Shown here piece after piece: positions 6,061 to 11,053 of a stretch of DNA of 64,000 nt. The DNA comes from Candidatus Woesearchaeota archaeon (GTDB lineage Archaea > Nanobdellota > Nanobdellia > Woesearchaeales > GW2011-AR4), in the NCBI GenBank assembly GCA_016187465.1, contig JACPJQ010000003.1, positions 62,001 through 126,000 on the forward strand, read 5' to 3'. A program made the position numbers and the translations under genes. The notes beneath the pieces are model-generated. The model was not told where the DNA came from. It did no database searches and saw nothing but the letters and a program-made list of their open reading frames with translations. The stretch's first letter is position 1, and each line of letters starts with the position of its first letter.

Positions 6061-6276
6061 ATGGCAAGTACAAACATATCAATAAAAAAGGAAGCCTATG
6101 AATTTTTAAAAAATTTAAAGACAGGCGAGAGGAGCTTTTCAGATGTAATCCTAAGCTTTAAGAATGAGCATAAGGACGTAATGAGATTTTTCGGCGTATT
6201 GAAAAATATTGACTGGGGCGAAAAAGAGAAAAATATGCAGCATCTTAGAGGCTCTTTTAACAAGAGATTAGAATGA
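6061..6276 (+). CDS. vapB: VapB-type antitoxin
   Basis: MASTNISIKKEAYEFLKNLKTGERSFSDVI; overlaps PIN toxin start. Confidence 0.8.
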   Translation: MASTNISIKKEAYEFLKNLKTGERSFSDVILSFKNEHKDVMRFFGVLKNIDWGEKEKNMQHLRGSFNKRLE

Positions 6277-6665
6277 TAGGATTGGATACAAGCGCGATAA
6301 TTGATATATTCAGAGGAGATGAAAAAATAAGGCAATTTCTTGAAAATAATAAAGAGCCATTGGCCGCGACCATAATGAGTTATTTGGAGCTGTTTTTTGG
6401 CTTGGACCCTCAAAATCCCAAGCATAAGGAAGAAGGCAGCTATTATGGTGAATTATTTAAAAGCGCTTATAACCTAGGCTTGACTAAAGACGCATGCGAA
6501 GAAGCCTCAAAAATATTTTGGAGCCTGAAAAGAGAGGGTAAATCTATCGAGCAATTCGATTGTGTTATAGCGGCAATACTTATTACAAACGGGATTAACA
6601 AAATCTTAACAAGAAATTCAAAGCACTTTGATAAGATTTCTGGGCTGGAGGTGTTAAGCTATTGA
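6273..6665 (+). CDS. vapC: VapC PIN-domain toxin
   Basis: MIGLDTSAIIDIFRG...FDCVIAAILITNGINKILTRNSKHFDKI. Confidence 0.9.
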   Translation: MIGLDTSAIIDIFRGDEKIRQFLENNKEPLAATIMSYLELFFGLDPQNPKHKEEGSYYGELFKSAYNLGLTKDACEEASKIFWSLKREGKSIEQFDCVIAAILITNGINKILTRNSKHFDKISGLEVLSY

Positions 6666-8215: not shown

Positions 8216-8356
8216 TTAAATTGTGCTTTCATCTATCCAGTCCTGCGCTGACTTGACTAATCCGACATCGCCTTCTTTTGAGCAGTAAGGGCATCTGGCA
8301 GGGATCTTGTCTTTCTTGAACTTGAAACCGCAGCCGCGGCATTGTAAGTCGAGCAT
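8216..8356 (-). CDS. Small zinc-ribbon protein (46 aa)
   Basis: MLDLQCRGCGFKFKKDKIPARCPYCSKEGDVGLVKSAQDWIDESTI*; two CxxC knuckles; below ORF-track cutoff. Confidence 0.7.
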   Translation of the reverse strand: MLDLQCRGCGFKFKKDKIPARCPYCSKEGDVGLVKSAQDWIDESTI

Positions 8357-8441
8357 AACACTACCTTATAGTAAGAAGTATATAAATATTTTGGATTGCA
8401 AAATGAAAAACTTTAAATAATAGGCATTTTTTCCTTACTAT

Positions 8442-8510
8442 ATGATAGCACAAAACATAAGGAACATCATAATCGGTTCTATCATAGCTATCATCATAAT
8501 TATTATTTAA
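8442..8510 (+). CDS. Ile-rich leader peptide MIAQNIRNIIIGSIIAIIIIII (22 aa)
   Basis: 13 of 22 codons are Ile; TTTAAATAA box about 25 nt upstream fits leaderless initiation; precedes an isoleucine-pathway gene. Confidence 0.55.
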   Translation: MIAQNIRNIIIGSIIAIIIIII

Positions 8511-8511
8511 A

Positions 8512-8580
8512 AGGCCCAAAACAAATATTCTGGAAGGGCCTGGGCATCTCTGCTTGATTCTGGAATATTTAACGTAAAAA
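8512..8580 (+). promoter_or_regulatory. Candidate attenuator: two mutually exclusive stem-loops
   Basis: Stem 1 AGGCCC(8512-8517)/GGGCCT(8536-8541); stem 2 AAATATTC(8523-8530)/GAATATTT(8573-8580), whose 5' arm lies in the loop of stem 1. Confidence 0.5.
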
Positions 8581-8597
8581 ATACAATGAGGTAATTG

Positions 8598-10166
8598 ATG
8601 GATAGACAACCAGTAATAATATATGATACAACTTTAAGGGACGGAACGCAAGGAAGCGGAGTTTCATTTACTGTAGAAGACAAATTAAAAATTGCAAGAA
8701 GGCTTGATGAGTTAAGATTTGATTATGTTGAAGGAGGGTGGCCAGGGTCAAACCCTAGAGATGCCGAATTTTTTTCAAGGGCAAAAGATACAAAATTTAA
8801 CTATGCAAAGATTGCAGCTTTTGGTAGCACAAGAAAAGCTAACATACAGCCACAATCTGATCGTAATCTTCAATACTTAATAGAAGCTGATACGCCAGCT
8901 ATAACTATTTTTGGAAAAAGCTCTTTGTTTCAGGTCAGGGATGCATTGCGCACTTCTCCCAAAGAAAATTTAGATATGATATCTGACTCTGTGGCTTATC
9001 TTAAATCGAGAGGGAAGGAAGTTATTTATGATGCTGAGCATTTTTTTGATGGCTTCAAAGAAGATAAAGATTACTCATTAAAAACACTTCAAGCGGCAAA
9101 ATCTGCAGGGGCTGATTTTTTAGTTTTGTGCGATACAAATGGGGGAACTCCTTTTCATAGGGTGCCAGATATAATTAAAGAAGTAAAAAAAGCTTTAACT
9201 GGCTCAAGGCTTGGGATTCATGCGCATAACGACGCAGGGTACGGAGTTGCTAATAGTGAAGCAGCACTAATTGAAGGTGTTGAAATGGTGCAAGGTACTA
9301 TTAACGGCATTGGTGAAAGAGTTGGAAATGCAAATTTAATTACCATCCTTGGAAATATATTCCAAGAAGGTATCCCGGCTACAGGTAACATTGATGTATC
9401 ACAACTAAGGCCACTCTCTAGACTTGTATATGAATTAGCAAATCTACCTCCAGACTTAAGACAACCTTACGTTGGAGATTTCGCTTTTGCTCATAAAGGG
9501 GGTGTTCATGTAGATGCTGTAAACCGGAACCCTGCTTTGTACGAGCACGCAGACCCCGCTGCATTTGGGAATGCAAGAAGATTCCTTGTATCTGATTTAG
9601 CTGGCGCCGCCAACTTTGAAGCGCTAAGCAGATATGATTTATCTAAATCAGATCCAATTACAAGAAAGATTTTGGAAGAAGTTAAAGAAAGAGAGCATAT
9701 GGGATATTCCTATGAAGTTGCCGATGGTTCCCTAGAACTGCTTATCAAAAAAATCAAGGGCGAACAAATACATTTCTTTGATGTGCTTTCTTATATCACT
9801 TTAGATAAGCAGAATTTGAAATCAACATCAAATCCTGTTCTTGCTAATGTCCATGTAAGTGTTCGTGGGCACACCATTTACAGAAAAGGTTCTGGTGATG
9901 GTCCGGTCAATGCATTGGATGTTGCTCTGCGAGCAGTTCTAGAAAGTGAATATCCGGAATTAAAGCAATTGGAATTGGCAGATTATAGGGTGCGTGAGAT
10001 ACCCGAGCGAAGAGGTACAGCCTCTCGAGTCAGGGTATTAATAGAATCGCGAGTTAATGGTTTTACATTTGGAACAGTCGGTGTAGGGGAAAATAGCACT
10101 CAAGCAGCATTAGAGGCCCTTGTGGATAGTTTTAATTATGCACATTTAAAAATACAAGAAAAATAA
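8598..10166 (+). CDS. cimA: Citramalate synthase (CimA/LeuA family)
   Basis: IIYDTTLRDGTQGSGVSFTVEDKLKIARRLDEL..YVEGGWPGSNP, LGIHAHNDAGYGVANS, HKGGVHVDAV; GAGGT SD at 8588. Confidence 0.85.
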   Translation: MDRQPVIIYDTTLRDGTQGSGVSFTVEDKLKIARRLDELRFDYVEGGWPGSNPRDAEFFSRAKDTKFNYAKIAAFGSTRKANIQPQSDRNLQYLIEADTPAITIFGKSSLFQVRDALRTSPKENLDMISDSVAYLKSRGKEVIYDAEHFFDGFKEDKDYSLKTLQAAKSAGADFLVLCDTNGGTPFHRVPDIIKEVKKALTGSRLGIHAHNDAGYGVANSEAALIEGVEMVQGTINGIGERVGNANLITILGNIFQEGIPATGNIDVSQLRPLSRLVYELANLPPDLRQPYVGDFAFAHKGGVHVDAVNRNPALYEHADPAAFGNARRFLVSDLAGAANFEALSRYDLSKSDPITRKILEEVKEREHMGYSYEVADGSLELLIKKIKGEQIHFFDVLSYITLDKQNLKSTSNPVLANVHVSVRGHTIYRKGSGDGPVNALDVALRAVLESEYPELKQLELADYRVREIPERRGTASRVRVLIESRVNGFTFGTVGVGENSTQAALEALVDSFNYAHLKIQEK

Positions 10167-10170
10167 AATC

Positions 10171-10743
10171 CTAATTCCCTTGTCTGTCATGTGCCCTTAA
10201 GCTTGGCCTTACTTTTTCATATCCTTTTCCTTTTCCGCGCAGCCCTCTGCCTTTTCTTCCTGCGCTTGTAAGCCCTCTTGAAGCCCTGCCTTTGTGCTCA
10301 ATAATCCAGTTTATCTGGGGATCAGAAACTATTGATGGATTGGCTCTGTCTACAATAATAACCTCATACCAGTAATGCAGGCCGTCTTCCCCGGCATAAT
10401 AGCTGTTCAGAACTTCGCAATTCGGATATTTCCTGGCAGCCCTGTTCTCAGCAACAGCCTGGTAGTTCATTGTCAGGTCTTTTCTTCTGGACATTGCTTT
10501 CGGCCTTCTTGGATGCCTTATCTGGGGCCTCTGCCTTCCGCCTCTGTTCACTCTCTGCCTTAAAACAATGAATCCCTGCTTTGCCTTATAGCCCAAAGAA
10601 CGAGCTCTGTCAATTCTGGTCGGCCTTTCCAGCCTTATAGTTGCCGGCTCCTGGCGCCATTTTATAATGCGCTGCTGCCACAACCCACCAAGGCCTTCTC
10701 TTGGCTTCTTCCAAGCCTCTCTTATATACTGGTACATTCCCAT
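10171..10743 (-). CDS. rpl15e: Ribosomal protein L15e
   Basis: [14 protein letters not shown]...[48 protein letters not shown]; start moved to 10743. Confidence 0.93.
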
Positions 10744-11053
10744 TTTAAGCTTCCATTCAACTGCAAAGTCAGTTGACACCTTGCGAGACATAAAGTCTCG
10801 AGTGCTCACTTCGTTCGCAAAATAATTTATACTAAGATTCTGGTAAGCAACTACCAACATCTCTTAGCTAAAATTTGGAATTTTATTTAATTTATAAAGG
10901 TATTGGAAAACTATTGCAAAAATTATGAAAAAAATCTTTTCTTGTAGTTGTAAAAATTTTAAAAAAAGCCGATATCAGGCAGATACTTATTTTTAATAGG
11001 GATTTTCAAGCTTGCAGATAAATCAAGTTAAGGTAGCAGTCTCACGAAGGATT

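Follow-up and report, generated by a model that had tools for sequence, protein, structure and literature searches.

The gene for citramalate synthase (cimA) in an archaeon of the order Woesearchaeales is very probably under amino-acid-specific control by a leader peptide, encoded by a 22-codon open reading frame (ORF) in which a run of isoleucine codons reaches the stop codon. Positions given below refer to the window, i.e., the whole stretch of 64,000 nucleotides of Candidatus Woesearchaeota DNA that was analyzed. From comparison of sequences we favor, with a probability of about 0.6, a complete model in which a ribosome-mediated attenuator senses Ile-tRNA and an RNA fold serves as the off-switch, probably at translation. 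According to this model, transcription would begin at the ATG of the leader, whose 22-codon peptide would be translated by a ribosome from the 5' end of the transcript. When Ile-tRNA is short, ribosomes would dwell in the terminal Ile run and, at the last two or three codons of the run, would cover with their leading edge the 5' arm of a helix, denoted S1, that follows the stop codon. The fold of S1 and a second helix, S2 (a hairpin, probably a pseudoknot), would be held open and cimA would be expressed. When Ile is plentiful, the ribosome would finish and leave, the RNA would fold just past the stop codon, and the folded RNA would turn cimA down, most likely at translation initiation.

The leader ORF (MIAQNIRNIIIGSIIAIIIIII*, positions 8442..8510 on the forward strand) starts at the ATG at 8442 and ends at the TAA at 8508-8510. 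Thirteen of its 22 codons specify Ile (ATA 5, ATC 5, ATT 3) and the last six before the stop are consecutive; all these features had been listed in the preliminary description of this DNA and were confirmed in the sequence. Ile is found also at early codons, not just in the terminal run. On the two strands of the window, one of 543 ATG ORFs of 15-40 codons consists of at least 50% Ile, compared to none of 15,848 such ORFs in 20 dinucleotide shuffles, which excludes that the 8442 ORF arose by chance; one of the same 543 ends in IIII. A pattern of four Ile codons and a subsequent TRR was matched four times across the 1.62 Mb of the genome, and the stop is real in three of these matches, including the 8442 leader. 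Leader codons that differ between congeners are frequently synonymous: pairwise comparison gave 48 synonymous and 57 non-synonymous differences, where 24% synonymous would be expected and the pairs are not independent.

The downstream gene (8598..10166, forward strand) encodes a protein of 522 residues, assigned as the citramalate synthase CimA by model TIGR00977 (588.9 bits, cut-off 450), and is preceded on the same strand by a Shine-Dalgarno (SD)-like GAGGT at 8588..8592, identified by inspection. CimA contains the HMGL-like catalytic (PF00682), post-HMGL (PF22617) and LeuA allosteric (PF08502) domains. LeuC, LeuB, IlvC and IlvD were not detected in the genome of the window (G000, 93% complete). 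LeuC (PF00330), LeuB (PF00180) and IlvD (PF00920) are all absent from 13 of 20 genomes tested, including G000, a convincing IlvC is also absent from most of those 13, and all four enzymes are present in G095, G181 and G066. The cimA gene of G000 looks, by its gene content, like an orphan first step. Of the earlier claim that the enzyme acts in isoleucine synthesis, the assignment as a citramalate synthase stood, but the subsequent enzymes were not found in the genome. Because the enzyme keeps its domains and is of the isoleucine type according to the model, the link to isoleucine is provided by the leader and the enzyme family. The next gene, for ribosomal protein L15e (10171-10860, reverse strand), adjoins cimA, which identifies the contig as archaeal; the two genes are found side by side in four genomes of the genus (the window, L003, L019 and L022). 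Elsewhere in the window, a PIN-domain gene (6273-6665) directly follows a small ORF (6061-6276), a likely toxin-antitoxin pair of the VapBC type.

The established geometry of archaeal promoters sets the expected transcription start relative to the TATA box. In the window, the center of the TATA box (TTTAAATA, 8412..8419, forward strand) lies 26 nt upstream of the leader ATG, so that a start is expected at or next to this ATG, i.e., the transcript would be leaderless. The same distance is 25-29 nt, with one at 31 nt, in the 43 leaders of the main set, and a perfect TATA box at such a distance before the downstream gene's own ATG was found in only 1 of 44 cases. The promoter positions suggest that the leaders of this class are probably leaderless. 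The preliminary description had made its proposal dependent on a transcription start near 8440, and the promoter lies at a fitting distance for a start at the leader ATG.

A search for the enzyme family across the order and the phylum, followed by inspection of the upstream regions, revealed leaders of this kind in 21 archaeal families, 48 in all (a single order and one genome from another). Their common plan is a TATA box about 26 nt before the ATG, an ORF of 15-53 codons that closes with a run of Ile or Leu/Val reaching or adjoining the stop codon, and, in almost all of them, a hairpin thereafter; the peptides are mostly 20-26 residues long with a hydrophobic C-terminal half. Leaders of congeners include MIAQNIRNIAIASIIAVIIII, MIAQSIRQIVIASIIAIIIIII, MIATNIKYAGIISVIAITIIII and MIANNQIKIIAIASIIAIIIIII, those of distant families MTDSSKRILTIILGIIIIIS, MKASDSVQDIISQIIIIGAIIIIL, MKTAIAIKRGIFLAIAIIIIII and MPKINTICGISITSIIGIIISITIII, and those with a Leu/Val run before leuA MKRTNSFKSFTFLLVLLLLVLVL, MKYKTSVTLEVLLVLVLVVLL and MDIRSALRISSVLSVLVLLLLLL. 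Alignment of cimA upstream regions from relatives, proposed earlier as a check, yielded both Ile-run leaders and post-stop stems, and the stems covary. The leaders of G064, G086 and G144 are weak, the hairpins of G245 and G513 are poor, no leader was seen upstream of three cimA genes (G137, G295 and G296), and none belonging to ilvC itself, which sits within operons.

The leaders were chosen by eye in the survey, a bias that is reduced, though not eliminated, by a test with a fixed detector. The detector, based on the TATA position, an ORF of 15-55 codons and at least six I, L or V among the last eight residues, recovered 32 of the first 43 leaders. It gave no match on either strand of his/trp loci totaling 290 kb, and in the window (128 kb, both strands) it identified the 8442 leader only. 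In a control set of 80 bacterial cimA loci, no short ORF ending in I, L or V was found upstream of the gene. A scan of 35 genomes for the Ile-run pattern alone was discarded, since it returned too many AT-rich matches to be specific.

The identity of the amino acid follows the enzyme. Within the last ten residues, Ile outnumbers Leu in all 27 leaders before citramalate synthases and Leu outnumbers Ile in all 21 leaders before genes of the leuA family, and 10 genomes with one leader of each kind conform to both rules. The Ile leaders precede two separate, unrelated clades of citramalate synthase, i.e., the TIGR00977 type and, in four cases, another clade. These four were grouped as Ile type after the leaders were known, and the family model serves as the independent check: in the two members scanned, the best model was the Leptospira-type CimA NF042433, with scores of 624 and 627 bits that do not reach the model's cut-off of 950, while the isopropylmalate synthase models gave at most 357 bits. 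A leuA gene that was checked scored above the cut-off of the isopropylmalate synthase model; the leuA label of the most divergent entries is based on homology alone. In the enzyme tree, the leuA entries of G105, G024 and G158 were read in wrong frames and carry no weight, and the other clades stand. The codon choice thus goes with the product even where the enzymes belong to unrelated branches.

The RNA fold begins immediately after the leader. The 5' arm of S1 (AGGCCC, 8512..8517, forward strand), 1 nt past the stop codon, pairs with its 3' arm (GGGCCT, 8536..8541), i.e., the 6-bp stem described previously is present. The 5' arm of S2 (AAATATTCTGGAA, 8523..8535) lies within the S1 loop and pairs with TTCTGGAATATTT (8558..8570) in 13 base pairs including two G.U, an interaction longer than the 8-nt match noted at first. 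Of that match, AAATATTC is at 8523-8530 as reported, but the complement GAATATTT, placed at 8573-8580, is found at 8563-8570, i.e., 10 nt away. The second arm was said to end 7 nt before the SD sequence; it ends 17 nt before the GAGGT at 8588-8592, which leaves 27 nt to the ATG of cimA at 8598.

The folding energy of S1 in the window is unexceptional (z -0.7), so that support for this helix comes from relatives and from covariation. Over 43 leaders, the first 45 nt after the leader stop have a mean fold z of -2.2, with 32 of the 43 below -1.5. The stem starts at the stop codon or at most about 8 nt past it in almost all leaders, and this proximity, despite a distance from leader stop to gene start that varies from 32 to 144 nt (two in-frame upstream ATGs ignored), indicates that the position of the stem is tied to the leader. 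In five congeners, all cells of the S1 and S2 alignment are paired and four pairs are changed on both sides. With three leuA leaders added (eight family members), 99.2% of the cells are paired, four pairs (eight cells) are changed on both sides, and the covariation score exceeds all 500 shuffles and, by far, all slid versions; the segments used as input had been trimmed manually to the helices, a choice that favors pairing but not compensatory change. Loop-to-downstream pairings that resemble S2 are found in G160 (shuffle p 0.007) and G159 (p 0.000) and, weaker, in G128, G191 and G074. In many leaders S2 is absent or weak, which implies that at most S1 is general. A search of Rfam with positions 8300-8700 gave no match near the gathering score, to T-box or any other family. 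Past the hairpin, a string around CATTGTTTCT is common to the distant families of G084, G181, G066, G095 (cimA) and G105 (leuA), and strings similar to GCATCGTTAAAAA are common to other post-stop regions.

The two helices had been described as competing hairpins, a view that was not supported: their strands are disjoint in all 13 leaders in which both were placed, S2 using only the S1 loop and a downstream strand, and S2 is lacking in many leaders. The spacer before S2 is 1-3 nt where S2 has 7 pairs and 5-9 nt where it has 9-13 pairs (13 leaders), and such an increase with the length of S2 is as expected for an H-type pseudoknot. From this arrangement we infer that S1 and S2 as one pseudoknot fit at least as well as alternative hairpins. 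The relation between the helices bears also on a scheme of classical attenuation, the logic of which is the reverse of that favored here: an early stall would allow S1 to form as an anti-structure, while a ribosome at the stop codon would block S1, such that S2 forms and cimA is turned off. Such a device would still be an Ile sensor, and a ribosome at the stop codon would indeed cover the 5' arm of S1; the early Ile codons of the window leader would fit, and S2 alone is the more stable fold in the window, so that the role of S1 could be limited to that of a kinetic trap. However, with disjoint strands S1 need not exclude S2, many leaders have S1 without S2, and the most conserved Ile codons adjoin the stop codon rather than lying farther upstream. 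We consider this scheme unlikely.

The model in which a slow ribosome keeps the fold open is preferred on the grounds of ribosome reach. In bacteria, the ribosome extends about 12 nt past the codon being translated (PMC4833913). With the same footprint assumed here, the 5' arm of S1 would be reached solely by ribosomes positioned at the stop codon or at one of the final two or three codons, and conservation of Ile is highest at codons -2 (96%) and -3 (93%) from the stop; it is the combination of these two that leads us to this preference. Concerning the step at which the fold may act, neither helix is followed, on inspection, by a U-tract in the genus of the window, and a read-out through a terminator was rejected, as no U-tract is conserved. 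The earlier suggestion of translational rather than terminative control is plausible on the same grounds. The corrected coordinates rule out direct masking of the SD sequence by S2 in the window, and with S2 ending so far from the ATG it is not evident how the ribosome-binding site could be masked directly there. S2 lies close to the ribosome-binding site in G010, G004 and G160 and overlaps the SD sequence in G159, which is not so in most of the family.

That the runs end at or next to the stop codon would fit also arrest by the nascent peptide, where the C-terminus of the leader senses the free amino acid rather than tRNA charging. Micro-ORFs at the his and trp loci of the same archaea, with a fixed Cys-x-His or Cys-x-Trp and few sensed codons, could be seen as a precedent. 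The Ile and Leu leaders have a composition in common, not a motif, and they contain many sensed codons, as do attenuators that sense tRNA, which makes peptide arrest quite improbable. The length and the hydrophobic C-terminal half of the peptides would be suitable for a small membrane peptide (toxin-like or accessory) found before cimA by accident, but the choice between Ile and Leu follows the downstream enzyme without exception, even inside one genome, the sequence is otherwise poorly conserved and S1 is anchored at the stop codon, all of which renders this explanation very improbable. A low-complexity ORF arising by chance in an AT-rich genome, next to unrelated repeats (cf. the z-score of S1 alone), is hardly conceivable given the shuffled ORFs, the conservation in 21 families and the covariation; the survey itself speaks against it.

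In bacteria, attenuation by leader peptides that respond to amino acids is a textbook mechanism. In the open-access literature searched, which leaves most subscription papers outside, no archaeal leader-peptide attenuator was found described, and no paper on a DPANN citramalate synthase was found in the open-access literature searched. The nearest known design is the LEU element of actinobacterial leuA, described as an upstream ORF with Leu codons, a candidate pseudoknot and no terminator (Seliverstov et al. 2005, PMC1262725). A base stem of the LEU element pairs its Leu codons with the SD sequence, and evidence cited in the same paper indicates that these codons are dispensable (PMC1262725). 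The archaeal leaders resemble the LEU element in the run of relevant codons in an upstream ORF, the candidate pseudoknot, the lack of a terminator and the branched-chain amino acid (BCAA) gene downstream; the two covarying helices are found in a pseudoknot arrangement also here and may coexist. The archaeal leaders differ from the LEU element in that the fold follows the stop codon (stop bases being part of the fold in some leaders), that the Ile run contains, by inspection, neither a CCUC-type stretch nor a complement to GAGGT and no base stem of the LEU kind is formed, and that the hosts are archaeal and citramalate synthase is served as well.

In Corynebacterium, the upstream ORF of ilvBNC, or ilvB-II motif, encodes a BCAA-rich leader peptide before a BCAA gene and is described as acting by transcription attenuation (PMC10272879). 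Such a peptide upstream of a BCAA gene is the likeness to bacterial ilv/leu attenuators, and, as in bacterial attenuators, the codon run matches the downstream pathway (Ile 27/27, Leu 21/21). Two mutually exclusive folds that share strands were not found and, unlike in these transcription attenuators, the Ile run abuts the stop codon, U-tracts after the helices are lacking in the genus of the window and the promoters are archaeal TATA promoters. The C. glutamicum leader reportedly forms without a ribosome binding site (Morbach et al. 2000). In translational attenuation of the erm/cat type, the hairpin that controls the next gene is opened when a ribosome stalls within the leader ORF. A stall on the archaeal leader ORF would likewise open a hairpin ahead of the next gene, but here the signal would be shortage of an amino acid and not a drug, and masking of the start site is direct or near only in G159, G160, G010 and G004, and not in the window.

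If confirmed, these leaders would show that archaea control genes through the translation of a mini-ORF, probably a leaderless one, and the sensed residue would switch between Ile and Leu according to the enzyme, with natural variants ready for testing how. The findings also raise the question of why citramalate synthase would be under isoleucine control in genomes without the rest of the pathway. One conceivable but rather improbable answer is that throughout the order ribosome-read leader peptides (for Ile and Leu and, by another peptide design, for His and Trp) control orphan first-step enzymes, and that a cell short of Ile makes citramalate, which it could not itself convert, and hands it over to a host or partner that can turn it into isoleucine.

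At hisG loci, leaderless micro-ORFs end in C/Y-[IL]-H, e.g., MKRVDCIHCR, MKTASGCIHRR, MKLVITEAKAVVSAGCIHYR and, in the window's own genome, MKRVGCLHCE (sense strand; L258:901, L262:337, L264:1293, L265:1112, L266:1233, L267:789, L268:632, L269:441, L271:1001, L273:1022 and L277:721). They look like a separate family of His leader peptides with a fixed motif. Chorismate-binding (trpE-like) genes are preceded by leaderless micro-ORFs with D-C-x-W close to the stop codon, e.g., MTRVDCRWHWL, MTYKSDCRWS and MTSDCPWHR, or by others with W-rich ends, such as YFWCFWE and LWFIWD (sense strand; L243:381, L251:599, L242:524, L246:482, L249:583 and L244:583), both of which are candidate Trp leaders. A tRNA-His gene is located at the hisG locus in five genomes (L263, L265, L266, L274 and L276), and in G144 (L251) the micro-ORF is separated from the trpE-like gene by a tRNA-Trp gene.
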